Source: Magnetococcales bacterium (lineage in GTDB: Bacteria; Pseudomonadota; Magnetococcia; Magnetococcales; JADFYX01). Taken from it: a DNA stretch of 64,000 nt. Where the stretch lies: NCBI GenBank assembly GCA_002753565.1, contig PEAM01000001.1, forward strand, positions 186,001-250,000. Direction: 5' to 3'. The position numbers were made by a program, and so were the translations under genes. Shown here piece by piece: positions 41,185 through 54,193 of the stretch (position 1 is the first letter of the stretch; every line of letters begins with the position of its first letter). Under the pieces are notes generated by a model that was given only the letters and a program-made list of their open reading frames with translations, was not told the DNA's origin and searched no databases.

Positions 41185-41214
41185 AAAAAAAAGGGGGTTT
41201 AACCCCCTTTTTTT
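41185..41214. terminator. Strong terminator at the end of the phage-like module
   Basis: An almost perfect palindrome, AAAGGGGGTTTAACCCCCTTT, is flanked by A8 and T7 tracts, so it can act on both strands. On the minus strand it ends the 51245-to-41219 phage transcript and insulates the HEPN-TPR pair. Confidence 0.92.
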
Positions 41215-41218
41215 GCGG

Positions 41219-41491
41219 TTAGCTGTAGGTTAAAGCGGCACGGTTGCTCCACAGTTGGTCAAATGTCACTCGACCGTTGGCAAACAGGGTGGCGGTAGAG
41301 CCATCGGCAAAGAGGGCGGTTCTCTGGATCAACCAGACGGGGTCCGATTCACTGCTGCCGGGGTCAGCGCTGCCCATATAGATATAGTCGGTGCTGTCAA
41401 CGGTGGTGGAGTCGGTTCGGGTGGTGAGCAGATTTTTTCCACTCAGGAGGTTGTTGAGTTTGCTTTTGTCAATATGGATCGAGTGGGGCAT
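41219..41491 (-). CDS. Small protein at the end of the phage module, probably tail-associated
   Basis: The protein has 90 residues. No named family recognised. It starts HSIHIDKSKLNNLLSGKN and continues with a Thr/Asp/Ser-rich middle and a C-terminal strand-rich part (LFADGSTATLFANGRVTFDQLW). It follows the tail tip-like gene by 36 bases and precedes the terminator, so it is the last gene of the module. A tail-fibre or baseplate accessory role is inferred only from position. Confidence 0.6.
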   Translation of the reverse strand: MPHSIHIDKSKLNNLLSGKNLLTTRTDSTTVDSTDYIYMGSADPGSSESDPVWLIQRTALFADGSTATLFANGRVTFDQLWSNRAALTYS

Positions 41492-41527
41492 GATACTCTC
41501 CTTGGGTTAGGTTAATAGGTAAAAAAA

Positions 41528-43837
41528 TTAGGGTTTGATTAGGGTTAGCCGAGAAATCTGGCTGTCGGGTTCAAGATGGTGATGCAGGGTTGTGAGCAGC
41601 CCTCTAAAACTTGCACCGTGGAGGGCGTCGTGAACCTCCACCAGTTGACCGGGGGCCAGGTCAGGTCGCCAGACGATGGTCAGCTCCACCTGCTGGCAGG
41701 TGGCTCCACGGTTCAGCTCCTGCTCTCCTCGAGCCAGCAGGGCCGATTGGCTGCTCAGCAGGTGCGAAACGATCTCTGCGCCTGGATGGCCGCCGTTATC
41801 CCGTTGGAGTGTGACGGTCTCATCCGCTAACGGTTGGCGGTAAGCATAACTGGAAAAGGCCACGGGAAAATTCGCCTCTCCGGCCAGTTGTGAGGGGGCC
41901 TGATAGTGATAACTCTGGCTGGTGGTGGTGGCGGTCAGGTGGAGTATGGCGGTGCCGGTGTCGGGGGTGGTCAGGGTGCGGCCATCGGCACTTAGATGGG
42001 GTGTGCCCAGATCTCTTCCCAACCAGGTATGGTGGTCGATACGGCGGATGGGCCGCTTGAGTTTGGCTTGGTTGGACTGGAGGAAAACCAGGTTTTCGGT
42101 CACCGTATAGCTGACCTCTCCCAGAGAGGTGACGCTTGCTGTCGAGGGGGTGAGAGGGGCCGGTTCCTGATTGGGTCCGGCGGTCAGGAGCAGATGGGCG
42201 GTATCGCCAGGTTGAAAATGGCTCTTGCCCCGATTGGGCCCTGCGACACGCTGATCCAGATGGATGGAGAGGTACCCTTCTGCCTGGTTGGGGTTGCGGT
42301 TATGGATGGTTATCTCATTGAACGGTTGCTGTGGCAGACTGCTGATTCGCATCTTGAGATTATCGGCTTGGTCGGTCAAAACATGGTTGGGCTGGCTGCT
42401 CTGCCAGTGGGGCAGGGACGGGGTGAAACGGGGCCGTGCCACCAAAGAGCCATCGGGCAGGCTGTTGATGACGCCGCCCACCGCACCCACAATGGTCTGG
42501 GCCATCTCCATGGGGGTCTGGCCCTGGCTCTGTAGCTTGTTGCTTGCGATGGACCAATCAACCATCTGCCACTCCAGGGGGGTGGAGAGCAGGGTCTCTA
42601 CCGCTGTTTTGGCGGTGATACTCTCTGACCACACCTTGTCAAACGGCAAGGCGTAAGGAGCGGCATCACGGGCAGCCGGGCTGATGGCGTTGATGACTCG
42701 AACCCCTTTTCCCGTCCCATCACGGAGGGTGCTTTGTTGGTGGATGATCAGGTTGAATCTTGCTTGGCCCACCTCTAAAATAATCAATTCATCCAGGTTG
42801 AGAGCCTGCCCGGCCTGTTCGGGAGCCAGGGTCAGCTTAGCCTGCCAGCCAAAATGGTCCTGGCTGGCTTGAATCTCCAGTTCAACCGGGTTGATGGGCA
42901 GGCCGTTCAGGCGGATCTCCGGTTGAGAGCGCTGTAGCCAGAGCGGATCGGAAGAGAGATCCCAAAAGCCTTTTTTGGTACGGGAAACCGGGTTGTAGAG
43001 TCGTAGATCGAAGAGGTGTCGGCAGGCGCTCTGTTGGCTCTGAGTCTGGGTGAAAGGTTGGCGGTTGTGGTGGTTGAGGATCCGGCGCAGAGACCATTCG
43101 GCTCGATTGGTCTGGTGTATGCGGTCATGGAGAGGTTGGCTTGAGTGACCAAGCAGCCATCTTTTCCAGCTCTGCCGATGCTCTTCTACCAAAACAACCG
43201 GGTAGGGTCGTGCACTGTCGGCAGCCAGAGAGAGGGGGTAGGTGAGGGTGCTCTGTCTGGCCAGGAGCAGGCCATAGGGGTGGCTGTGGTGATGGCCGAC
43301 CGGCAGGCTGAAGGGGAGGGTGGCAGCATGGTGGACAAAGAGTCCGATGGCAGCCGGCTGTCTGCTCTCCCTGATCAGGGCCATGGCGAAAGGGTGGCTA
43401 CTCTTGGCTTGAGCCATGGGGCCGGGAACAGTGAAGGTTCTTCCCGCCCCACCAATCCACCCCGACACCCCGTTCCAGGCCATCTCTTCGTGCCAGTCGG
43501 TGCCATCATCCGAAGAGGAGAGGGTAAAATCCTGCGGACATTGATAGCTGTTTCTCGGGAGAAAATAGATCTGCTTGATTGCCACATCCCCGGCGGAGAA
43601 GTCATACTGAATCCAGCAGGTTTCCGAAGGGCCGCCATTGCTCCAGTAGAGGCTGATATTGTTGTCGAAAAGCTTGTCGACCGAGCTGTTATTGTGGCTG
43701 GCTTGTGGGGTGCCACCATGACAAAGGTCGATTCCCTGAGGGGTTCCGCGCAGCTCTACCTCATAGAAAGAGAGCAGATTATCGGCTCCGGAGGTGGATT
43801 GGGTGATGGTGATTCGCCAGTAACGGTGGGTAGCCAT
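41528..43837 (-). CDS. Phage tail tip/host-contact protein with discoidin-like N-terminus
   Basis: The protein has 769 residues. Residues 1-138 look like an F5/8 (discoidin) carbohydrate-binding domain (YWRITITQSTSGADNLLSFYEVEL, then IQYDFSAGDVAIKQIYF and DFTLSSSDDGTDWHE). Residues 148-221 are six tandem units of about 12 residues built on an aromatic-Pro/Leu core (HPFAMALIRES, HPYGLLLARQST, RPYPVVLVEEHR). Residues 300-769 resemble a tail hub: TPMEMAQTIVGAVGGVINSLPDG, then beta-rich repeats. It is the largest gene of the module and the likely receptor-binding or baseplate protein. Exact homologues could not be named. Confidence 0.65.
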   Translation of the reverse strand: MATHRYWRITITQSTSGADNLLSFYEVELRGTPQGIDLCHGGTPQASHNNSSVDKLFDNNISLYWSNGGPSETCWIQYDFSAGDVAIKQIYFLPRNSYQCPQDFTLSSSDDGTDWHEEMAWNGVSGWIGGAGRTFTVPGPMAQAKSSHPFAMALIRESRQPAAIGLFVHHAATLPFSLPVGHHHSHPYGLLLARQSTLTYPLSLAADSARPYPVVLVEEHRQSWKRWLLGHSSQPLHDRIHQTNRAEWSLRRILNHHNRQPFTQTQSQQSACRHLFDLRLYNPVSRTKKGFWDLSSDPLWLQRSQPEIRLNGLPINPVELEIQASQDHFGWQAKLTLAPEQAGQALNLDELIILEVGQARFNLIIHQQSTLRDGTGKGVRVINAISPAARDAAPYALPFDKVWSESITAKTAVETLLSTPLEWQMVDWSIASNKLQSQGQTPMEMAQTIVGAVGGVINSLPDGSLVARPRFTPSLPHWQSSQPNHVLTDQADNLKMRISSLPQQPFNEITIHNRNPNQAEGYLSIHLDQRVAGPNRGKSHFQPGDTAHLLLTAGPNQEPAPLTPSTASVTSLGEVSYTVTENLVFLQSNQAKLKRPIRRIDHHTWLGRDLGTPHLSADGRTLTTPDTGTAILHLTATTTSQSYHYQAPSQLAGEANFPVAFSSYAYRQPLADETVTLQRDNGGHPGAEIVSHLLSSQSALLARGEQELNRGATCQQVELTIVWRPDLAPGQLVEVHDALHGASFRGLLTTLHHHLEPDSQISRLTLIKP

Positions 43838-43838
43838 A

Positions 43839-44948
43839 TTATTTTTCCGGCAAGGGGTTGAAGATAAAGGAGGCGAAGTCCAAGACAGGACTTTCGACCA
43901 GCGTGGCCGTTTGGCCGCTGAGGGGGAGAGGCTCCCCGGTGCTGTAGGTAAAGTGGTCTCTATCCCACAGTAGTTCGCCGGTCAGGGAGAAGGTCTCTCC
44001 TGCCAGGCTGCCGCCAAACTCAGAGAGAGGCTGCTCCAGGTCGATCAAGCTTTCATCGGCTGAAATGGTGGGGAGTTGGGTCTGGAAACCGACATTGGAT
44101 TGAATGGAAACAGCCGGCTCGCTCCATCTTCCCGGACAGGCTGAAACGGAGAGGGTGAGGGTGATGTTTTCAAACAGTGTGTAACGTCGGTCCAACAGGC
44201 TTTCCGGCGGCTCGGTGGGTTGTGTCACCCCGGCCGGATATTGCCAGGGGGCCGTGACGGTTCCTCCGCTACAGATATCTCGAATATCAAAAGTGCCATG
44301 CCAGCCGGAAAGGTCCGCTTTGGGGTGCCAGATAATACCCAGTACGGGAAAGAGAAAAGCCAACAGCGCCTGGCCACCGACCATCTCCAGAGTAGCCTGA
44401 AAGGGGACTGAGCTGGAGAGGGTTGTCTGCTGCTCGGTCCGGGTTGGCGTCGGATGGTTGAACTGAGTCACTTGATGCCAATAGGGGAAGGTGAGATCCC
44501 AGGTTCCCGGTCCAATCAGGGCGGAGGTCGCCCCTGAATGGTAGACACGATGATAACCGGTCTCCAAGGTTTTTGATCCACTGGTTCGAAGATAACAGCG
44601 GAGGTTCTCCCTCCCCATATCGAAGCGGCTCTGCAGCAGCAGTCGATCCAGCTCCAGCAGGTAGTAGCCCAACTCAAAATGAAAACGGACCACCAGCCCC
44701 TCCGCCCCTTCGAAGTAATCCAGGGGTTGGTTGGGGTTGGACCGCCGGCTCTGGCCGCTAAAGAGAAAAAGACCCAGGGGGGTGTAGAGGGTCAGGGTGA
44801 TGGTCTCATCCAGATCGGGGGAGAAGGTCACCCCATCGTCCCGCGTGAGTTGAAACTTGAAGCGGGCCATCTGACCAAACTGAATGGCCACAATGCGGCC
44901 AAAGGGTCCGGGGGCTTTGAAGGGAGGGGATGAGGGGAGTATCGTCAT
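43839..44948 (-). CDS. Phage-module protein of unknown function (beta-rich, tail-like)
   Basis: The protein has 369 residues and no recognised family. It is rich in beta-prone segments with many aromatic and Gly/Thr residues (MARFKFQLTRDDGVTFSPDLDETITLTLYTPLGLFLFSG; LRCYLRTSGSKTLETGYHRVYH). It starts with a hydrophobic/Pro-rich segment but has no convincing signal peptide. Stop and start codons are separated from its neighbours by one and five bases, tightly packed in the module. A tail or distal-tail role is inferred from position between a tail-like gene and the tip gene. Confidence 0.6.
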   Translation of the reverse strand: MTILPSSPPFKAPGPFGRIVAIQFGQMARFKFQLTRDDGVTFSPDLDETITLTLYTPLGLFLFSGQSRRSNPNQPLDYFEGAEGLVVRFHFELGYYLLELDRLLLQSRFDMGRENLRCYLRTSGSKTLETGYHRVYHSGATSALIGPGTWDLTFPYWHQVTQFNHPTPTRTEQQTTLSSSVPFQATLEMVGGQALLAFLFPVLGIIWHPKADLSGWHGTFDIRDICSGGTVTAPWQYPAGVTQPTEPPESLLDRRYTLFENITLTLSVSACPGRWSEPAVSIQSNVGFQTQLPTISADESLIDLEQPLSEFGGSLAGETFSLTGELLWDRDHFTYSTGEPLPLSGQTATLVESPVLDFASFIFNPLPEK

Positions 44949-44953
44949 TTTCT

Positions 44954-46030
44954 TTATTGGCTGAATCGAAAGGTGATTTCAGGAAGATAGGGGTGGGCAT
45001 CCCACCCTTCACAGGTCGGCTCTCCATTGGCTGGGGTCAGCTGCATGGTGAGTGAAACGGGTCGCTCGACATCGATATAGACATCCGCATCATCCTGGTT
45101 ATAGATCCGTTCAACCTGAGTTTGGCGATCGGTTTCCACGTAGTGCAGGGGGGTGTCACGATTGGCCGATGCGACACACTCACTGATGGCCAGGTAGTCG
45201 TTGGGGGTGATGGTTTGGCTGCCACCGGTTATCTGTTGCCAACATTTTTTCCAGCAGGGGTCCAGATCCTCCAAAAGCGGGAGGAGATCAAAGGGTGGCG
45301 GGGCTGGTTCATTGGCATAGCCCCGTTTTCCCACCGACCCTTCGGGCCAGAACTGGCGTTGAAAAGAGAGCTGGGTGGCGTGCCCCTCTGCCAGGGCGAT
45401 GACATGGACTGGAGGAATGTCACTATCGCGAATATTGCCCGCAAGCCAGGCCAGCTTCATCTCTCGGAAACGGTCCGGATCCATCTGCTCCTCTCCCATG
45501 TCATAGCGCACCTCGAACAGAGAAAATTCCGGGCTGTATTGGACTACAAGTGCGCCGGTAACCGCTTCGGTGTGGTAAAAAAGGCCTTGATCGGGCAGAA
45601 AGACCGGTGGAGAGACCTCGTGCCCCTCTCTGTTGAAGAAGCGGGTTTTGTCCACCACCTCCACACTCAGTTCATCATAGGTAAAACGGAGAGATTGGCT
45701 ATTTCTGTTGGTCCAGGTCAGGGTTTCGGTCCGCCGAGCGGTTCGACGGCCCAGAGCGGTGGCTTCCCCCGTATGGACGCTTAGTCGAGCGGTCTCGGCC
45801 AGTTGCCGTGAGCAGTAGAGACGCAACCTGCGGGTACCCCGATGGGTCATTCTCAAGCTGGTCTCGACCTGATCACCGTAGTGGTCCGGGCTTCGGCTCC
45901 AGATTCCCACCAGCTTGGGCTTGACCAGAATCGGTGAAGCCCCCAAATCATCTCCCGCCATCAGGGTGAAGGGGGATTGTCTCTGCTGACTGAGAAAATC
46001 CAGGGTCAGTCCGGCCTGCAACTCGCTCAT
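44954..46030 (-). CDS. Phage-module protein of unknown function
   Basis: The protein has 358 residues; no family recognised. It has no signal or membrane segment. Charged/aromatic segments such as GTRRLRLYCSRQLAETARLSVH and DLDPCWKKCWQQITGGSQTI stand out, and the C-terminus is strand-rich (VYIDVERPVSLTMQLTPANG). It overlaps the preceding 46027 gene by four bases, implying translational coupling with the probable tail-tube-like protein. Confidence 0.6.
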   Translation of the reverse strand: MSELQAGLTLDFLSQQRQSPFTLMAGDDLGASPILVKPKLVGIWSRSPDHYGDQVETSLRMTHRGTRRLRLYCSRQLAETARLSVHTGEATALGRRTARRTETLTWTNRNSQSLRFTYDELSVEVVDKTRFFNREGHEVSPPVFLPDQGLFYHTEAVTGALVVQYSPEFSLFEVRYDMGEEQMDPDRFREMKLAWLAGNIRDSDIPPVHVIALAEGHATQLSFQRQFWPEGSVGKRGYANEPAPPPFDLLPLLEDLDPCWKKCWQQITGGSQTITPNDYLAISECVASANRDTPLHYVETDRQTQVERIYNQDDADVYIDVERPVSLTMQLTPANGEPTCEGWDAHPYLPEITFRFSQ

Positions 46031-47058
46031 TCACTCTCTCCACTGATGGCAATCACCACCTTGTTGCCGGAGAGGCTGTCGGCCCCGGCGGGAACGGTAC
46101 GTTTTTCCCAGATGGCCATAGCCGCCGGGTGGGTTTTGAAGGTAAGGGTATCCCCGGATGCCCAGGTGCCCCCCCAGGGGGGGGTGCCATCGGTAAGGGT
46201 AAAATAGGGTTTGGCAAAGGTGCTGTTGTTGGGAGAAAAATCACCACCACCAATCGAGCCGCTACCCACATTGCCCACCGTATTGCCGGAGCAGGTAAAG
46301 TTGCTGGCGTCTGAGAAGGTGACGATCCAGGTCTGCTCGATGGTGCCGATATGGTCGGTAATCGGTGGGTTGGCGCTCTCGTCATAGCTACCGGCCACCG
46401 ACGACTCTCCCCATCCATCGACGCTGGCTTCAATGTTGGCAGCCTCCAGAACAGAGGCCACTTTGGTCGAGCCGCTCAGATAACTGTTGGCCAGTGCCAC
46501 CCCAGAGGCCAGGGTCAGGGTTGCCTGATCCCCATTCCAAGAGACGCCCCCCGTGGCAGCCAGGCGGAGAAACTCACTGTTGCCAGACGGATCGTCGATG
46601 CTGGTCTGGTTGGAGATGCGGATCAGGTCACCGTTTTGGAAGATGGCATGGCCTGCGGCACTGTTTCCCGGTTCCACATTCACCGTGATACCGGTATCCA
46701 GAGCCGCCACATTGGCATCGAGGGTTCCAGCCCCGTAAAAACGGGTATAATCATCGGCATCCCCCTGGGTATCGGTCTGGGTGCCGCTCATCAGAACAAT
46801 GCTGTCGTCACCGGGGGTTTGGGTCTCGATAAAAAGCTTGGGGTCGATGAGGGTCAGATCGTCATCGTTGGCAACCTTGATAAAACTTTTTCGATACTTG
46901 ATGGAGCCCGCCGTCCGCTCCACCTGGGGGACGTCGGGCCAGACATTGTTCTTGACGCCATCGGGAATTTCGCTGTTTGAAAGGGTGCCGCCATTGGTGG
47001 CAGTGTCGTTGATCAGGGCAGGTTTATACCATTTGATTTCGCTTGTTTGAATGGCCAT
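46027..47058 (-). CDS. Phage tail-like structural protein (candidate major tail protein)
   Basis: The protein has 343 residues from ATG 47058, which has AAGGAAGTG at the right distance; the longer frame start at 47094 lacks support. It is Gly/Ser/Thr/Asn-rich with few charged clusters, like phage structural beta-proteins: MAIQTSEIKWYKPALINDTA, then RKSFIKVANDDDLTLIDPKLF, then a C-terminal Gly-rich domain. It is the best candidate for the tail tube or a sheath-less tail protein, but no diagnostic motif is seen. It is followed with a four-base overlap by the 44954 gene. Confidence 0.6.
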   Translation of the reverse strand: MAIQTSEIKWYKPALINDTATNGGTLSNSEIPDGVKNNVWPDVPQVERTAGSIKYRKSFIKVANDDDLTLIDPKLFIETQTPGDDSIVLMSGTQTDTQGDADDYTRFYGAGTLDANVAALDTGITVNVEPGNSAAGHAIFQNGDLIRISNQTSIDDPSGNSEFLRLAATGGVSWNGDQATLTLASGVALANSYLSGSTKVASVLEAANIEASVDGWGESSVAGSYDESANPPITDHIGTIEQTWIVTFSDASNFTCSGNTVGNVGSGSIGGGDFSPNNSTFAKPYFTLTDGTPPWGGTWASGDTLTFKTHPAAMAIWEKRTVPAGADSLSGNKVVIAISGESE

Positions 47059-47071
47059 GGGTGTCACTTCC

Positions 47072-47452
47072 TTAGGAAACGGGGTTGGATACAATTCCGG
47101 TCAGTCGGATGGTGCCGACAAATTGGGTGTGGTGAGGCCACACAGGGGTTAAATCCAGGGCTGGGGGTTGGTGATGGCGAAAACCGACATTCAGGGTCAC
47201 CTCCTCCCAGACCAGAGGGTAGATGGCACCCGCCTGGGCTGCCATCTCCAGCAAGGCTTCCGTCGTGGTGTGGCTCAACCAGGTGGTCTCTTTGCTTGCT
47301 GTCAGGGTGATGGGGGTTCCACCCCCCTGACGGTGAAAGGCCACCGGCGTGCCAGCCAAGGTCTGGACCACCGTCTGGGCCACCGGAGAGACCGCATAAC
47401 GATCAATCCACTGCAGGGAGTCGGGTAAAAGAAGCTCTCCGAGTTTTTTCAT
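47072..47452 (-). CDS. Small phage-module protein, unknown function
   Basis: The protein has 126 residues. No family recognised. It begins MKKLGELLLPDSLQWIDRYAVSPVAQTVVQTLAGTP and continues with strands (ITLTASKETTWLSHTTTEALLEMA; EEVTLNVGFRHH). It sits between the tail-terminator-like gene (27 bp) and the 46027 gene (13 bp), where head-tail joining or tail completion genes usually lie. That role is inference from position. Confidence 0.6.
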   Translation of the reverse strand: MKKLGELLLPDSLQWIDRYAVSPVAQTVVQTLAGTPVAFHRQGGGTPITLTASKETTWLSHTTTEALLEMAAQAGAIYPLVWEEVTLNVGFRHHQPPALDLTPVWPHHTQFVGTIRLTGIVSNPVS

Positions 47453-47478
47453 CTGATTTTCAATCTCCTAAATGGCTG

Positions 47479-47910
47479 CTAAAGGCCCCGTAAGATCAGA
47501 CGGGTGCTTACCCGCAACGGGTAGAATCCATAACCATTGTGATAGAGTGGCCCAGACACTTTTTTGAAGGTAAGAGGCCCATACTCTGCGCCGGGTTGCC
47601 AGCCGATCAGGGTTTCACAAAGTTGGATCAACAGCGGCCCGGACATTGCCCGCTCCTCCGAGCCGGAGACTGTCTCTCGACCGGTACGCACAACGGTAAT
47701 CAACAGCCACTGTTGGTCGATGGCCTGTTCCTGGCCAGCCCCTAAAAAGGGCTCCTGTCCGTCATACACCAGATAGAGTGCCGGAACCGGGCCGGGTTGA
47801 TCCTGCAGAGCCTTCTGGCTGCGAGCGGTGGTGATTAGCCTGAAGGCTCCCTGAAGGGTTTGCAGTCGGTCTAGCAGGAGCGACTCGGCAGAAAAAAAAT
47901 CATCCATCAT
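47479..47910 (-). CDS. DUF1834/gp37-like phage protein, possible tail terminator
   Basis: The protein has 143 residues. It reads LLLDRLQTLQGAFRLITTARSQKAL, then LYLVYDGQEPFLGAGQEQAIDQQWLLITVVR, then PLLIQLCETLIGWQPG and a final GFYPLRVSTRLIL, the alpha/beta order of small tail-terminator proteins such as Mu gp37/DUF1834. Tail terminators end tail-tube growth and join the head. The order after the DUF1320-like gene matches Mu-like phages, which supports this, but the family call is not certain. Confidence 0.6.
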   Translation of the reverse strand: MMDDFFSAESLLLDRLQTLQGAFRLITTARSQKALQDQPGPVPALYLVYDGQEPFLGAGQEQAIDQQWLLITVVRTGRETVSGSEERAMSGPLLIQLCETLIGWQPGAEYGPLTFKKVSGPLYHNGYGFYPLRVSTRLILRGL

Positions 47911-47916
47911 TTTCTC

Positions 47917-48435
47917 CTACCGGCTGATAAATTGGTTGAGGGTTGGGCGATCAAAAACCGGACTGCCGGCCTCAAAGTCGACCAAGCCAGCCCCAACCCC
48001 CCCTTGGGTTGTCAAAGAGCTGCCCAAATGGGCCTGACCACTGGCCAGATCTCGCAGCCAGCTCAGGGTCAGGGTGTAGCGCTGTTCAACCTCAGGCGGG
48101 ACGCCATCGTCATAAAGAAGTCGACGTGCCATGGCGCCACAAGCCCGTGGCAGGGGGCTGGACTGAACCATCTCTGGGGCAATGGGTAGGGAAAAACGGT
48201 GACCCAGATAGGATTCAATCAACTGGCTGGACTCCTCCAAAGCGATGGTCATCCGATTGAGGGCGGCATCGGCAGCGGTAGTCTCTTCCTCTGAAAAACC
48301 GCTCCGATCCTCCTCTGCCAGTGTCAGGCGAAGCAGCTGGGCCGAAACCAGAGCCAGATCGTCTGGGGTGGCAATTTGAGCCATCTCTTTGGCTCCGTAC
48401 CAGTCGAGGAGATGGTGTGGTGCGGCAAAGCTCAT
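47917..48435 (-). CDS. DUF1320 (Mu gp36-like) head-tail protein
   Basis: The protein has 172 residues from ATG 48435, which follows AAAGGAG; this start overlaps the preceding stop by four bases. It matches the Mu gp36/DUF1320 pattern: HHLLDWYGAKEMAQIATPDD, then AALNRMTIALEESSQLIESYLGHRFSLPI, then CGAMARRLLYDDGVPPEVEQRYTLTLSWLRDLASGQ. These proteins are head-completion or connector parts. It lies directly between the capsid-side genes and the tail terminator, as in Mu-like genomes. Confidence 0.8.
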   Translation of the reverse strand: MSFAAPHHLLDWYGAKEMAQIATPDDLALVSAQLLRLTLAEEDRSGFSEEETTAADAALNRMTIALEESSQLIESYLGHRFSLPIAPEMVQSSPLPRACGAMARRLLYDDGVPPEVEQRYTLTLSWLRDLASGQAHLGSSLTTQGGVGAGLVDFEAGSPVFDRPTLNQFISR

Positions 48436-48767
48436 GGGTTTTTCTCCTTTATCCATTGTGTCCAAAGCCGATTGCGTTCCGAGGCCGAGACCCTGCGCCC
48501 CATCAGGGTTGTCAGGGTCTCGGTGCGGGGTAGGCCGGTCCGGGTCCAGTGGTTGGGGTTGTTCGGTTCCAGTTGGTGCAGGAGCTTCCCCAGGGGGGCG
48601 TCTGGTGGGTTATGCCCAGTCCCCCCTTCCTCCTGTACGGGTGGCTCTCCCAGGGCGGCTACCCGCAGCAGAGCAGCCCCCTGGTCTGGTCCCATCTCAA
48701 CCACGGCACCGGGGGCAAACCGTTTGCCGTCGTGGTGCAGTGGGGTGAGTACGGTAAACCGTGCCAT
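48432..48767 (-). CDS. Small phage head-associated protein
   Basis: The protein has 111 residues. A short N-terminal part (ARFTVLTPLHHDGKRFAPGAVVEM) is followed by a Pro/Gly linker and a C-terminal helix-turn segment HWTRTGLPRTETLTTLMGRRVSASERNRLW. That C-terminal pattern is seen in small phage proteins encoded between capsid and DUF1320 genes. No enzymatic role is visible. It lies 5 bp after the capsid gene and overlaps the DUF1320-like gene by four bases. Confidence 0.7.
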   Translation of the reverse strand: MARFTVLTPLHHDGKRFAPGAVVEMGPDQGAALLRVAALGEPPVQEEGGTGHNPPDAPLGKLLHQLEPNNPNHWTRTGLPRTETLTTLMGRRVSASERNRLWTQWIKEKNP

Positions 48768-48772
48768 GGGTG

Positions 48773-49699
48773 TTAAGCCGGATTTTGGATCAGGTAGCCG
48801 GAGAGGATGCCCGTCAAAACAGGGATACGCTCGTAGGTGACCGGGAATATCCAGCTTTTGGCGTTATTTTCGTAGTAAGGCTTCTCCACCAGCGGATGGC
48901 CATCCATGGTATAGGTGTAACCAAAGGAGGGGTCCTCCATACCCGAGGGCGAGCTGGGAACATAGGCTAAAATGGCGTTGTTGCCCCAGATGTCGATATC
49001 GTTACCCTCATCGTCAAAGGCAACCGCCTTGCCGACCACCACCTGCTCCAGATCCAGCAAGGCGGCGAGCATGTCCGGGGTGACGGACTCTCGGCTGGTA
49101 TATTTGAACCGCTCGATGATGGTGGGGTGGTTTTTCAAGGCGTTGAAGGCTTGAGAGGAGAGGGCCAGGGTGTTGGGATTGATACCCACCGAGGTGCGGA
49201 CCGACTCTTTGCCCACATTGATGGCCTGGGTTGGGTCGGAGGCACCATCGCTCCACTGGTCGCTGCCGGAGAGGGCTACTTTGTGGTCACCATCATAGTT
49301 GTTGGTGTCGGTAGCCAGTTGAGCCTGTTCATACTCCAGGGTCAGGGAGAGGGCACGCAAGGTGTTGTTGATGGCACGACCACCCAGGTCGATTCCGGGA
49401 GCGTGGGCGGCATCTCGAAGATATTCACGGGGTATTTGACCCTCTAGGGAGTCCTGAACCAGGGCAAAACTTTTCCCCAGATGGCCAAACCGAATCCGTT
49501 TGGTGGCGGCACCGGGGGCACGGCGGGCTTGATAGAGCTTGAAGCTCTCTTTGCCAAACTCCAACACCTGACCACCGGAAACCGGTACCGATACCCGTGG
49601 AAACAGGGTGTGTCCAATATGTTCGGAGTGGCGATAACCTTGAGCAATTTCCGTGAGAACCGGATCGATGACCCGTACTTGACTGGCTGACATAGACAT
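48773..49699 (-). CDS. Phage major capsid protein
   Basis: The protein has 308 residues with the layout of a capsid protein: an N-terminal arm (ASQVRVIDPVLTEIAQGYRHSEHIGHTLFPRVSV), the extended GKESFKLYQARRAPGAATKRI strand, the spine helix with LRALSLTLEYEQAQLATDTNNY, and a peripheral domain ending RIPVLTGILSGYLIQNPA. The segment VVVGKAVAFDDEGNDIDIWGNNAILAYVP is typical of this coat family. It follows the decoration gene by 49 bp. It should self-assemble into a shell around the 50202 scaffold. Confidence 0.88.
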   Translation of the reverse strand: MSMSASQVRVIDPVLTEIAQGYRHSEHIGHTLFPRVSVPVSGGQVLEFGKESFKLYQARRAPGAATKRIRFGHLGKSFALVQDSLEGQIPREYLRDAAHAPGIDLGGRAINNTLRALSLTLEYEQAQLATDTNNYDGDHKVALSGSDQWSDGASDPTQAINVGKESVRTSVGINPNTLALSSQAFNALKNHPTIIERFKYTSRESVTPDMLAALLDLEQVVVGKAVAFDDEGNDIDIWGNNAILAYVPSSPSGMEDPSFGYTYTMDGHPLVEKPYYENNAKSWIFPVTYERIPVLTGILSGYLIQNPA

Positions 49700-49748
49700 G
49701 TTCCATTATCCTTATTCAAATAAAAAGTTGGTATTAAAAAGGGTTCTT

Positions 49749-50165
49749 TTAACGACGAAGCAGCACTTCAATCCTTTTTCCGGCGGAGGCCGCCCCCTGC
49801 AGGGCATCGGCAAAGACAAATTCCGGCAGGTCACCCCCCTCCAGAATGGCTCCGTCGGCAGCGGAGCTGCTGACCGCTACAGCACCGCTGGAAATCCCCA
49901 GGGTTGTGGCTGGAATCACCCGGCCCTGACTATCCGTCATCAAAGAGTCCCCTACAGCGATGCTGGCGCCAGACTCGATAATGGCGGTTCCGTGGGTAAT
50001 GACCGCAACCGAACCGCCATCGTCAGCCTGGCTGAGGGTGGCTCCGGCCACTTTTTGCCCTTGGCTGGTTGCCTGGGCACCGTCAAAACCGATGGCTCGA
50101 TGGCTGGATACGGTCCCGCTGGCTGTGAGGGTCAAGGTGAGTACAGAGATATTTTGTTGGCTCAT
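49749..50165 (-). CDS. Capsid decoration/cement protein (DUF2190-like)
   Basis: The protein has 138 residues, small, Ala/Gly/Ser-rich and beta-rich: LTLTASGTVSSHRAIGFDGAQATSQGQKVAGATLS, then SGASIAVGDSLMTDSQGRVIPAT and a final AGKRIEVLLRR. It matches DUF2190-type proteins that sit on capsids and are encoded between scaffold and capsid genes, as here. There is an AGGATCAGACC ribosome site before the start. Confidence 0.8.
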   Translation of the reverse strand: MSQQNISVLTLTLTASGTVSSHRAIGFDGAQATSQGQKVAGATLSQADDGGSVAVITHGTAIIESGASIAVGDSLMTDSQGRVIPATTLGISSGAVAVSSSAADGAILEGGDLPEFVFADALQGAASAGKRIEVLLRR

Positions 50166-50201
50166 GGTCTGATCCTTAAATGGTGAGGTAGATGGTTTGG
50201 C

Positions 50202-50717
50202 CTACTGACCCAGGGTCAGGGCGGCGGTGAGATAGTCGATGTCACGGGTTTTGGCATAGGCCAGAATTTTCTGGTGGGTGTTCAAGCCGTCCGGGTCCAC
50301 CTGGTATCCTCTTGGGGTGGTGTAATGGCTGGGTTGAGAGGTGGTGTGATCGGTCTGGGGGGTGGTTTCGGCAAAGGCAACCTGAACCGGGAGTCGGGCC
50401 ATGAAGGATTGCAAGTAGTTGACCGCTTCGGAGGTGACCTTTTCCCCCGCCGCACCCGCTTCAGAAAACTCAATGATGCCGGTCTCTTTCAGTTTATCCA
50501 TCAGGGCAAGCAGCCCCTCCCGGTCTCGGGGCAGAATGCGACCCTCTTTGATCAATTGATCAACAAACTGAATCAGGCTTCCCTTTCTGTTCTCCTGTTC
50601 TTTCAGGCCGACGGCCTCTTCCCGTCTGGTCAGTTTTTCTTCCCGCTCATCCAGCTCCTTTTGGCGTCTGGTTAGCTCCTCCTGGTTGGGTGGTGTGGGT
50701 TTTTGTGGTGTTTTCAT
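50202..50717 (-). CDS. Nested in-frame scaffold protein (internal start)
   Basis: Within the protease gene an ATG at 50717 is preceded on the minus strand by GAGGAGAACACC, a very strong ribosome site. Translation from there yields 171 residues, all scaffold: a Lys/Glu coiled coil then the C-terminal tail. Phages of the Mu and lambda kinds use exactly such nested scaffold starts. The strength of the internal site argues that this short form is the abundant one. Confidence 0.7.
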   Translation of the reverse strand: MKTPQKPTPPNQEELTRRQKELDEREEKLTRREEAVGLKEQENRKGSLIQFVDQLIKEGRILPRDREGLLALMDKLKETGIIEFSEAGAAGEKVTSEAVNYLQSFMARLPVQVAFAETTPQTDHTTSQPSHYTTPRGYQVDPDGLNTHQKILAYAKTRDIDYLTAALTLGQ

Positions 50718-51245
50718 GGTGTTCTCCTCTGTTGATGGGGTTTCAGAAAAATCGGCACGGCTGGGTTGTTGAGTGGTTAAAAGATCGACGGCCCCGCTGA
50801 AGGTGAGCACTCCGCTCTCTGCTTCGTTAAAGGAGACATCACCAAGCCCTTTGATGGCCGGAGGCTGAGCACCCAAAAAACCCACATGACGCAGATAGTA
50901 GGTGCCCGGAACCGGATTGTTGGCTGCGGTGGGAGTGTAGAAGCTGGCAGAGACCTTTTTGTAGCGTCCCGCCTGAACAATCTGGCGAAAAGCGGGGTCC
51001 ACCTGTTGCACGGAGGCTTGGAGAGTTGCGTTCTTTACCGAAAGCTTGGAGACCCATCCCCAGGCCGGTGCGTCATCCTGGGGATGGCCGATAACCAGCG
51101 GGGCTTCATGACGAGTCGGTTGGTAGGCAGAGGCTGTTTTGTCCAGCTCCACCTTGGTGATTGATACGGTCGTCCCACTGATATCCTGATGACGACCAGC
51201 CTGGAATATTGGAAAATTGGTTAATGTGTTCATGGGGGGGATCAT
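50202..51245 (-). CDS. Phage head maturation protease with scaffold domain (Mu I-like)
   Basis: The protein has 347 residues. Residues 1-150 match the Mu gpI-type protease: APLVIGHPQDDAPAWGWVSKL, then GRYKKVSASFYTP with the probable catalytic serine, then YYLRHVGFLGAQPPAIKGLG. Residues 180-347 are scaffold: a Lys/Glu coiled coil (QEELTRRQKELDEREEKLTRREE) and a hydrophobic tail. A ribosome site and ATG inside the frame at 50717 would make the scaffold alone, as with Mu I and Z. It is the first gene of the phage module on the minus strand. Confidence 0.85.
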   Translation of the reverse strand: MIPPMNTLTNFPIFQAGRHQDISGTTVSITKVELDKTASAYQPTRHEAPLVIGHPQDDAPAWGWVSKLSVKNATLQASVQQVDPAFRQIVQAGRYKKVSASFYTPTAANNPVPGTYYLRHVGFLGAQPPAIKGLGDVSFNEAESGVLTFSGAVDLLTTQQPSRADFSETPSTEENTMKTPQKPTPPNQEELTRRQKELDEREEKLTRREEAVGLKEQENRKGSLIQFVDQLIKEGRILPRDREGLLALMDKLKETGIIEFSEAGAAGEKVTSEAVNYLQSFMARLPVQVAFAETTPQTDHTTSQPSHYTTPRGYQVDPDGLNTHQKILAYAKTRDIDYLTAALTLGQ

Positions 51246-51538
51246 GGTTTCCCCGTCGGCTAAATAGAATGTGAAGTTATTCAGTTGCTGACATATCTGG
51301 AAGACACTTCCTTATGGGGAGAAACCTGGGGTTGGGTAATAAGGGTAGAATAAGCGAATAGTTGCTTGCTCGAATTTTCAACAGGGGCAAAGATTTTGCC
51401 GCGGGAAAAATTGAAGTGAGGGGGGTGTTGTGTTAAAATCTCGCGGTTTTATACGATCTCCAAATGTGATTATTTGTGATTGGCCGCGATTTTTGTGTTT
51501 TTAGTGTTGAAACAGCCATAATGGAAGCTATTTTTGCG
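51246..51538. other. Divergent region between the phage module and the 51539 regulator
   Basis: About 290 bases separate the phage protease start from the regulator start. On the plus strand a good sigma-70-like promoter is seen (next entry). On the minus strand TTGAAA-type -35 elements exist near 51381 but without a clear -10, so I could not identify the promoter of the phage module. No operator palindrome or repressor gene is visible. Confidence 0.4.
51411..51439 (+). promoter_or_regulatory. Sigma-70-like promoter for the REC-PAS-GGDEF-EAL gene
   Basis: TTGAAG (51411-51416), a 17-base spacer and TAAAAT (51434-51439) form a close match to the sigma-70 consensus. Transcription would start near 51446, before every candidate start codon of the regulator. 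Confidence 0.6.
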
Positions 51539-54193
51539 ATGAGATCGGCAAAAAACAAAAAAATGGAGCAGGAAAACCATTCTGAGAGTGACCTGCTCTT
51601 TGCAGAAGAGTCCCTTGACGACTCCCTGGCGGACCTGACTGTCGAAGAGCGTTGGAAGATTCTCATCATCGATGATGATAGAGATATCCATCACTTGACC
51701 CGGATGGTTCTTCGGGGCTTGAAGGTTGATGGGCGAGGCGTCTCCTTGATCAGTGGCTACTCTGGTGAAGATGCCTGCCGCCTCATGGCCGAAGATCCCA
51801 GCATAGCGGTGCTTCTACTCGATGTGGTGATGGAGACAGACCATGCCGGGCTGGAGGCGATCCAGACCATTCGCGATGAACTCCGCAACGGTTTTGTCCG
51901 TATTATCCTGCGTACCGGTCAGGCTGGTCAGGCTCCCGAGCTGGATGTCATCTCTCAGTACGATATCAACGACTATCGGGAAAAGACCGATCTAACCAGC
52001 CAGCAGCTCATCACCTCGGTCACCACCGCTCTGCGGGCCTTTCGTGATCTTCGAACCATCGAACATCTGGCCGGTCGCTTGAAGGGAGAGCGGGAGATTC
52101 TCAAAAAAGCCCAGCAGATTGCCCATATTGGCAACTGGGACTGGGATACCGTTTCCGACTCAATCACCATCTCCGATGAACTCTCACGCATTTTGGGTCT
52201 TTCCCCCGGTTTTTTTGGTGGTCGCATTCAAGACTATCTGGACCGGGTCCATCCCAATGACCAGGACAGGTTGGAGAAGACCATCCGCTCTGCCCTTCAG
52301 GGGCGTCGCTCCTTCGACCTGGAGTATCGGGTGCTGCGTCCTGATGGGTCAAAGCGGATTGTGCGGGCTTTGGGAGAGCCGTACTGTGAGGATGAGACCC
52401 ATCAAAAATGTCGGATGATCGGCACCGTACACGATATTACCGAACAGCGGGAGGCGGAGAGCAATCTGAAAATAGCCGCCTCGGTTTTTGGTGGTGCCAT
52501 GCAGGAGGTGGAGGCCCAGCTCAACCTGACGGCGCAGGTGTTTGAAAATGCGATTGAAGGGGTGATTATTACCGATGAAAAAGGGATCATCCAGACGGTC
52601 AACAGTGCCTTCCAGACCATTACCGGCTATTCGGAAAAAGAGGCTGTCGGCAACACCACCGATTTTTTACAATCCACCGATCAGAATGACCATTTAAACA
52701 AGCGCAAATGGGCAGCCCTCCATCAAGGCAACGTCTGGAAGGGTGAGGTCTGGAATCGGCGCAAAAATGGAGAAGCCTACTCCCAGTGGGAGACGGTCAC
52801 CGCCATCTGTGATCGGGCTGGGGTGGTTACCAACTACGTCTCTGTTTTTCATGACCTCTCCGACATTAAAGCTCGGGAGCAACTCCTCGAGTTTCGCATC
52901 CACCACGACACCTTGACCGATCTACCCAACCGGGGACTTTTTATCGATCGACTCAAGCAGTCGGTGATTACCGCCCAACGGACAAAGGGAAAGGTTCTGG
53001 TTCTTTTTCTGGGTCTGGACCACTTTAAAAAAATCAACAACAGTTTAGGTCACGGCAGTGGCGATCAACTTCTCAAAAGTGTTGCCCACCGATTTCGCGA
53101 TTTTATCCGCGAGGAGGATACCCTCTGTCGCCTGGGAGGGGACTCTTTTGGCTTTATTCTTCGAGAAATCGGCCATCTTAAAGATGCCTTGACGGTTGTG
53201 CAGAAGCTGACCGGGGTTCTTTCGGAGCCTTTTTACATCAAGGGACATGAGCTGCACATAACCGCCAGTTCCGGCATAACCCTCTACCCGGATGACGGTG
53301 AGGATACTGAATCCCTGATCAAATACGCCGATATGGCCTTGACCCGTGCCAAACTGGCCGGCAGGGATGGCTGTCAATTCTACACAGAGACCATGGGCCA
53401 GCAGGCCGACCGGCGGTTGACTCTGGAGAAAAATCTTCGGGTGGCGTTGGAAAAAGAGGAGTTTATTCTCCACTACCAGCCAAAACTCTCTTTTGGGTCT
53501 CATCAGGTGGTGGGGATGGAGGCGTTGGTGCGTTGGCAGCACCCGGAGACCGGCTTGATCTCTCCGGGAGAGTTTATCCCGGTGGCGGAAGAGACCGGCC
53601 TGATCATCCCCTTGGGAGATTGGATCTTACGTGCCGCCTGCCGACAGACAAAAATCTGGCTGGATGCCGGTTATACCCCTCTAAAAGTGGCGGTTAACCT
53701 CTCGGCTCGCCAATTTCGTCAGGTGGGTATCTTCGATCTGATCAAACAAATTCTAGAAGAGACGGGCCTGCCGGCGGAGATGTTGGAGTTGGAGATTACG
53801 GAAAGCATGGTGATGGATGATGTGGAGGGGGCCATTGCCACCCTGACCCAACTGCGTTCCCACGGGATCTCCATTGCGGTGGATGATTTTGGCACCGGAT
53901 ACTCCTCGCTGAGCTATTTAAAGCGGTTTCCCATCCACACCTTGAAAATTGATCAATCGTTTGTTCGAGATCTGAGTTCGGACTCCAAAGATGCCGCCAT
54001 CATCGAATCCATCATCTCCCTGGCCAACGGATTGGATCTGCGGGTGGTGGCCGAAGGGGTGGAAACCGGTGAGCAGTTGATCTTTCTGGAGGTGGAGGGG
54101 TGTAATGAGGTGCAGGGTTATCACTACAGCCGTCCTCTTCCAGCGGAGGCTTTTTTAACGTTTCTGGAGAAGAAAAAAAAGGATATTTGTTAA
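51539..54193 (+). CDS. Response regulator with two PAS domains, degenerate GGDEF and intact EAL
   Basis: The protein has about 884 residues from ATG 51539; ATG 51521 and ATG 51563 are also possible, and none has a strong ribosome site. The receiver has ILIIDDDRDIHHL, LLLDVVMETDHAGLEA and ILRTGQAGQAPE. Two PAS domains follow (GNWDWDTVSDSITISDELSR; AIEGVIITDEKGIIQTVN). The GGDEF motif reads GGDSF, lacking the catalytic Glu, so cyclase activity is doubtful. The EAL domain keeps EALVRW, ELEITESMVMDD, DDFGTGYSSLSYLKRF and VAEGVET, so c-di-GMP hydrolysis is likely. It is independent of the phage module and reads away from it. Confidence 0.9.
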   Translation: MRSAKNKKMEQENHSESDLLFAEESLDDSLADLTVEERWKILIIDDDRDIHHLTRMVLRGLKVDGRGVSLISGYSGEDACRLMAEDPSIAVLLLDVVMETDHAGLEAIQTIRDELRNGFVRIILRTGQAGQAPELDVISQYDINDYREKTDLTSQQLITSVTTALRAFRDLRTIEHLAGRLKGEREILKKAQQIAHIGNWDWDTVSDSITISDELSRILGLSPGFFGGRIQDYLDRVHPNDQDRLEKTIRSALQGRRSFDLEYRVLRPDGSKRIVRALGEPYCEDETHQKCRMIGTVHDITEQREAESNLKIAASVFGGAMQEVEAQLNLTAQVFENAIEGVIITDEKGIIQTVNSAFQTITGYSEKEAVGNTTDFLQSTDQNDHLNKRKWAALHQGNVWKGEVWNRRKNGEAYSQWETVTAICDRAGVVTNYVSVFHDLSDIKAREQLLEFRIHHDTLTDLPNRGLFIDRLKQSVITAQRTKGKVLVLFLGLDHFKKINNSLGHGSGDQLLKSVAHRFRDFIREEDTLCRLGGDSFGFILREIGHLKDALTVVQKLTGVLSEPFYIKGHELHITASSGITLYPDDGEDTESLIKYADMALTRAKLAGRDGCQFYTETMGQQADRRLTLEKNLRVALEKEEFILHYQPKLSFGSHQVVGMEALVRWQHPETGLISPGEFIPVAEETGLIIPLGDWILRAACRQTKIWLDAGYTPLKVAVNLSARQFRQVGIFDLIKQILEETGLPAEMLELEITESMVMDDVEGAIATLTQLRSHGISIAVDDFGTGYSSLSYLKRFPIHTLKIDQSFVRDLSSDSKDAAIIESIISLANGLDLRVVAEGVETGEQLIFLEVEGCNEVQGYHYSRPLPAEAFLTFLEKKKKDIC

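Follow-up and report, generated by a model that had tools for sequence, protein, structure and literature searches.

A Mu-like head and tail-tip operon with unlinked portal and terminase genes in Magnetococcales: the probable structural locus of a gene transfer agent-like system

Three groups of gene transfer agents (GTAs) with an established genetic basis are recognized in the formal classification (PMC9662315). GTA viriforms are characterized by proteins of tailed-phage origin, particles that resemble such phages, full endogenisation, often at multiple loci, mostly vertical inheritance along with co-diversification with the host, a content of mostly random host DNA, a genome that cannot be packaged in full, and delivery of DNA to other cells (PMC9662315); phage origin, several loci and vertical inheritance recur among the published GTA features (PMC9662315, PMC11841831). 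It was also pointed out in a review that homology cannot reveal GTAs which are assembled from single, scattered genes with another phage ancestry (PMC11841831). This study deals with a run of phage-like head and tail genes, hereafter the module, found in a 64,000-nucleotide stretch (the window) of a Magnetococcales bacterium genome (assembly GCA_002753565.1, contig PEAM01000001.1, positions 186,001 to 250,000). With a probability that we put at about 0.7, the module holds the structural genes of a domesticated particle that packages DNA and is encoded at several loci; it is probably a GTA, independently derived from a Mu/B3/RcapMu-like phage. In the titles and abstracts of the open-licence literature searched, no report was found of a GTA in Magnetococcales or magnetotactic bacteria, nor of one from a Mu-like phage. 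The system is called GTA-like, and not a proven GTA: phage origin, endogenisation and vertical inheritance were observed in the sequences, and packaging and delivery are predicted.

The original prediction, made from the window's sequence, had described the cluster as terminase-less and portal-less. This held for the cluster and its direct neighbours, where neither a terminase nor a portal gene, nor any for MuF, MuG, tube or tape measure, was found, but not for the genome as a whole: profile searches with phage portal and TerL uncovered both as single genes at unlinked loci. In the window's genome these orphan genes stand amid host genes, outside any prophage and on other contigs than the module (Table 1), so that the system spreads over three separate contigs. 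The capsid was sought in 100 related genomes, and the comparison within the order covered 48 Magnetococcales genomes. Portal was detected in all 21 module-bearing genomes and TerL in nearly all of them, outside prophages; nearly all of the 21 carried both as lone genes at other host loci, and the orphans tracked the module across the 48 genomes of the order. Profile searches found neither gene as an orphan in the complete module-less genomes G008, G014, G016, G019, G021, G022 and G023. Exceptions to this co-occurrence were incomplete or fragmented genomes (G042, G043, G044, G046 and G047, and for TerL also G038) and G015 (see below). Of 20 genomes, 17 from three families had the portal gene next to hemH and pointing the same way; cobB came next in 15 of these 17, being out of reach or unmatched in the other two. 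The ATPase and nuclease motifs of TerL were invariant in 17 genomes.

The module itself, sought in relatives as the original prediction proposed, was found in 21 of the 48 Magnetococcales genomes, distributed over families f1, f7, f10 and f12, with collinear copies in each family. A tblastn comparison of the loci with the window genes and with those of phages (TerL, portal, F, G, tape measure) showed no TerL, portal, F or G upstream of the module in any of the four families. The capsid gene, present as one copy in the window's genome, was recorded in all five genomes of its genus (85-86% identity), in 14 f7 genomes (mostly 74-78%, one copy being merely a fragment) and in the sole genomes sampled from f10 and f12. 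Sites in f1 and f12 are orthologous, since the isomerase gene and its neighbour that flank the window module also flank the f12 module (L055). The f7 module sits elsewhere, at a site common to subgroup f7-g7. A recent deletion, which had been left open at first, and a decaying prophage both fit poorly with the same trimmed module in four host families.

Phylogenies of the three unlinked parts pointed in the same direction. Module capsids formed one clade (SH-aLRT 93), as did orphan portals (SH-aLRT 96) and 16 of 17 orphan TerLs (SH-aLRT 96), and all three clades stood next to Magnetococcales prophages such as L065, L067 and L068. Host groups f1, f7-g7 and f7-g17 were recovered by the capsid, portal and TerL trees and also by those of hemH, cobB, g1 and g8, with weak support for the branching order among the three groups. 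Together with the common portal site, this argues for mostly vertical inheritance and co-diversification with the host; the particle parts were apparently inherited from a common ancestor of this Magnetococcales group. Ratios of nonsynonymous to synonymous substitutions (dN/dS) in close f7 pairs were 0.03-0.12 for portal, 0.05-0.09 for capsid and 0.09-0.21 for TerL, which denotes purifying selection, while host neighbours hemH and cobB displayed 0.15-0.25 and 0.14-0.19, respectively. The remaining genes from g1 to g9 ranged from 0.11 to 0.44, g10 from 0.26 to 0.55, and g11 evolved fastest (0.39-0.71). Frames were open across 15-20 aligned genomes, except for stops at the extreme ends of a few alignments. 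The conserved gene set and boundaries, the purifying selection and the co-inheritance with the host speak for the options, among those first put forward, of a domesticated, gene-transfer-like particle or a missing part elsewhere.

A motif close to CTGCTGAAATnCTTCayaTT, noticed by eye and then recovered by motif discovery, was shared by the regions upstream of g1, portal and TerL. Its log-likelihood reached 147, 106 and 145 in three groups against 60-83 in shuffles, a figure inflated by kinship among the genomes. Leaving out one locus at a time gave p values of about 0.002-0.04 for most f7-g17 sites and about 0.01 for the f7-g7 TerL sites. A whole-genome pattern search yielded 29 sites in five f7-g17 genomes versus 1 for the reversed pattern; it recovered the g1, portal and TerL sites of G028, G034 and G041 as well as the window's own copy. 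Three further sites lay 40-130 nt ahead of a g12 homologue (44-46% identical) followed by fibre-like genes, one of these loci bearing a fibre with ALTTAQ repeats and a C1q domain. A search by motif only thus led, unprompted, to a fourth, fibre-bearing part of the system, and in several f7-g17 genomes the g12 homologue opens such a separate locus behind the motif. Many other hits fell within coding sequence and seem accidental; L232/L240, for example, were discarded as chance matches to codons. The fourth locus of G034 (L234, G034:C105:6500-12500) adjoins hemW-like and M16 peptidase-like genes and encodes the g12 homologue, a repeat-rich fibre protein, a glycine-rich fibre-like open reading frame (ORF) and a 129-aa protein. 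In G003:C7 (L253), a copy of the pattern precedes a dnaK-like gene by about 290 nt, a possible link to stress control or a coincidence.

These observations leave very little room for slow decay, according to which the genes would be remnants of an old Mu-like prophage and terminase and portal chance survivors. In favour of decay, the genes make up only part of a phage gene set, much of which is gone, and sibling prophages exist in the same genomes. Yet the identical subset persists in four families with open frames and an upstream motif common to the loci, and portal, capsid and terminase are constrained at least as much as hemH and cobB.

In the window, the module reads on the minus strand from 51245 to 41219 as 12 compact ORFs, and not eleven as was first counted; the difference is a 111-aa ORF between the capsid and gp36 genes. 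All 12 frames are open and end in a single strong terminator, as had been stated, and family matches agreed with the identities first proposed (Mu I-like protease, decoration protein, capsid, DUF1320 and DUF1834 connectors, tail and host-contact proteins). The features are summarized in transcription order in Table 1.

Table 1. Features of the GTA-like system in the window and at the orphan loci of the same genome (window positions unless a contig is given).
Feature	Position	Strand	Size, matches and remarks
Upstream element TGAATAACTTCACATT, copy of the portal/terminase-locus motif	51268..51283	-	whole-genome pattern search; motif test p = 0.009
g1, head maturation protease/scaffold (Mu I-like)	50202..51245	-	347 aa; likely start ATG 51233; phrog_976 4.8e-92
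g2, capsid cement/decoration protein	49749..50165	-	138 aa; PF09956 1.3e-6; phrog_673 2.1e-14
g3, major capsid protein (HK97 type)	48773..49699	-	308 aa; phrog_1005 5e-97; PDB 3bjq 1e-109
g4, small head protein	48432..48767	-	111 aa, overlaps g5; phrog_2498 1.4e-6; PF23843 0.0021 (below cut-off)
g5, head-tail connector (Mu gp36/DUF1320)	47917..48465	-	182 aa; PF07030 2.7e-14
g6, tail terminator (DUF1834 type)	47479..47910	-	143 aa; PF23840 5.6e-19
g7, tail-tip protein	47072..47452	-	126 aa; phrog_4408 1.2e-17
g8, tail-tip/tailspike-like protein	46027..47058	-	343 aa from ATG 47058 (355 aa from upstream TTG); phrog_6128 8.1e-33
g9, tail-tip protein	44954..46030	-	358 aa; no named relative; in place in 15 genomes
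g10, tail-tip protein	43839..44948	-	369 aa; no named relative; in place in 16 genomes
g11, tail hub/host-contact protein	41528..43837	-	769 aa; N-terminal F5/8-type C domain PF00754 1.8e-7
g12, 90-aa protein	41219..41491	-	44-46% identical to L234, L236 and L246 homologues
Intrinsic terminator ending the operon	41185..41207	-	GGGGG/CCCCC hairpin + T8, read directly
Orphan portal	G000:C71:59241-60395		389 aa; Portal_Mu 3.8e-108
Orphan TerL	G000:C25:69609-71189		phrog_38 7.6e-119

Copies of g1 in other module genomes displayed 37-61% identity to that of the window. The small head gene g4 was retained in f1 and f12, with partial matches only in f7. The g8 alignment across families had a mean column identity of 74%. 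PDB searches gave no match for g9 or g10; g9 further had no match among phage records, and its predicted structure (pLDDT 76) no fold match. Family matches of g11 included phrog_24698 (2.4e-28) and phrog_6079, a tail protein (1.1e-16). The operon is bordered by host genes: downstream lie a cyclophilin-type isomerase and others, upstream a galU-like gene and a regulator of PAS/GGDEF/EAL type. Each of the three loci in the window's genome (orphan portal, orphan TerL and module) has a signalling gene beside it, namely a chemoreceptor, a hybrid histidine kinase and a GGDEF/EAL regulator (L104:10722-13526, L105:11468-14491 and window 51476-54193), which is probably due to chance as such genes seem common in this genome.

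The main oddity of the module is its tail. In sibling prophages L066, L069, L071 and L072, a tube gene, usually a small protein gene and then a tape measure gene (862-1596 aa) lie between g6 and g7, the g7 homologue coming directly after the tape measure, whereas g6 directly adjoins g7 in the module. The original prediction was right that the cluster contains no tape measure, and none lies directly beside it. The genome-wide profile search that it proposed revealed portal and TerL, but profiles from sibling prophages and PF20155 detected no tape measure, tube, MuF or MuG as conserved orphans in module genomes. Phage-type F, G, tube and tape measure were recorded by profile search in prophage-bearing genomes only, and in none of the prophage-free module genomes; all these absences are those of profile searches. 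Putative TMP_3 matches were mostly below the cut-off and in long ORFs, with one above it in G003. Up to seven tail-tube profile matches on different contigs were observed in each of G039 and G040, suggesting many related prophages there. The idea that g8 replaces the tube was dropped because its predicted structure, weak in itself (pLDDT 63), shows only a tailspike-like domain, about 100 residues in the middle (probability 1.0, though with an E of about 0.005).

From the genes, a portal-bearing head with a tip is predicted, the tail being uncertain. The terminator and tip proteins were kept but no tube or tape measure was found; either a very short tail is used or an unrelated tail gene was missed. 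Tentatively, the particle might be a GTA without tail tube or tape measure, in which the tail terminator of a portal-bearing head would hold the tip/fibre complex directly: a short-tailed particle from a long-tailed phage, with motor, portal and fibres at separate host loci under one control element. The tailocin and the protein-packaging shell suggested at the outset are unlikely because the portal was kept along with a packaging motor whose ATPase and nuclease motifs are conserved, while tube and tape measure were lost; the tailocin was rejected, as portal and TerL are retained yet there is no tube, sheath or tape measure. A domesticated particle with another role, be it a PBSX-like or other DNA-filled one acting on competitors or a structural or signalling shell, has a small but real chance of being the right answer. 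The genomic evidence for it equals that for a GTA, in which delivery is a prediction; the host-contact protein g11 evolves fast, and the attachment module was retained though tube and tape measure are missing. On the other hand, the strong purifying selection on packaging motor and portal argues that filling with DNA matters, and a killing device would be expected to retain tube and tape measure.

The absent parts are also those that a helper could provide, and sibling prophages with such parts exist in some genomes (L065, L067, L068 and L072). The system could accordingly be imagined as a phage satellite with its own head, portal and terminase that borrows both tail parts, tube and tape measure, from a Mu-like prophage in the same cell. 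We consider this highly improbable: the genes lie dispersed at separate host loci, where neither an integrase nor mobile boundaries occur, the system is passed on vertically, and it is kept in genomes where no helper was found (G001, G003, G004, G010 and G020).

As to its origin, the closest named matches of both portal and capsid were Mu-like transposable phages, also among the phage records nearest to the window capsid. Chromohalobacter phage YPCBV-1 (capsid 58% and portal 55% identical), Rhodobacter phage RcapMu (capsid 46%) and Pseudomonas phage B3 (portal 52%) share the order protease, cement, capsid, connector, terminator. They differ in being complete: YPCBV-1 and RcapMu have TerL, portal, F and G side by side and also possess genes for transposase, tail and tape measure. 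Even closer are the Mu-like prophages L065, L067 and L068 (from G030, G038 and G045), sister or near-sister to the module system in all three trees and with capsids 66-69% identical, which differ by having the TerL, portal, F, G, protease, cement and capsid genes together in one unbroken run and by sporadic occurrence; they likely represent the ancestral type of the module. Outside Magnetococcales, most capsid relatives with enough flanking DNA adjoin portal and MuF, the ordinary phage layout. Prophage fragment L066 (G015:C88), with g1-g6, tube, tape measure and g7-g12, pictures the ancestral gene order well, and also encodes a 306-aa protein with a Mor-type late activator domain at its end. 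The window's genome holds Mu-like prophage pieces as well, with F, G, portal and a TerL fragment in L107 (G000:C85:20054-27167) and tube and tape measure in L106 (G000:C5:15797-19753); these pieces do not resemble the orphan genes and possibly stem from one split prophage.

The domesticated DNA-packaging particle may be pictured as follows. A Mu-like transposable phage of B3/RcapMu type would have lost replication, integration, MuF, MuG, tube and tape measure, and then descended vertically within Magnetococcales as at least three unlinked loci: the 12-gene head/tail-tip operon, a lone Mu-type portal and a lone large terminase, joined in some relatives, including f7 genomes, by the g12 and fibre locus. 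A host-controlled signal acting at the common upstream element would co-express these loci. Protease/scaffold and capsid would build a prohead on the portal, which the terminase would fill with host DNA, the presumed cargo because no phage genome remains to package; tip proteins and fibres would then bind the particle to related cells and DNA would be delivered. Particle formation, host DNA content, delivery and host control are all inferred. At the loci of the system, no genes for phage replication were observed, and the set that marks a complete Mu-like prophage, TerL-portal-F-G in one stretch plus tube, tape measure and transposase, was not found. Because the loci lie on separate contigs, one headful would seem unlikely to hold them all, depending on head size.

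Several points weigh against this reading. Particle, packaged DNA and transfer are so far predictions from genes, and most genomes sampled were fragmented metagenome-assembled ones. Without tube and tape measure, delivery is unexplained unless an unrelated tail is encoded elsewhere, and no lysis gene or regulator was identified. The module has no single site but differs in position between families, the f10 and f12 copies are less certain (those of f10 being divergent), and the sole full-length TerL of G015 (f12) sits in a prophage. Leave-one-locus-out values for the motif were mostly weak in f1, and the motif is weak in the window's own genus. The reduced-carbon signature of RcGTA type was not observed, with 4.90 C per residue in the module versus 4.85 in prophage capsids; carbon reduction was likewise absent in portal, TerL and g1.

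The system looks like a new, independently evolved GTA with parts over three or four chromosomal places. If so, it would add a further independent exaptation, here of a Mu-like phage, among magnetotactic bacteria, a group in which horizontal transfer is considered to have shaped the magnetosome genes. A route to finding such systems leads through lone terminase and portal genes that occur together with a head module and have an upstream element in common with it, and the missing tube and tape measure raise the question of how small a DNA-delivering tail can be. Like RcGTA and Rhodogtaviriformidae, the Magnetococcales system has phage-derived head and tail genes that are endogenised over several loci (five for RcGTA, PMC9662315) and vertically inherited. 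It differs from RcGTA by its Mu/B3/RcapMu-like ancestor, by TerL and portal as lone genes, by the lack of a detectable tube, tape measure and reduced-carbon signature, and by its unproven function. BaGTA of Bartonella and BhGTA/VSH-1 of Brachyspira belong to other host groups, and neither a run-off replication origin nor an endolysin was identified in the Magnetococcales system; compared by description, they too are independent exaptations of tailed phages, endogenised and co-diversifying with their hosts (PMC9662315).

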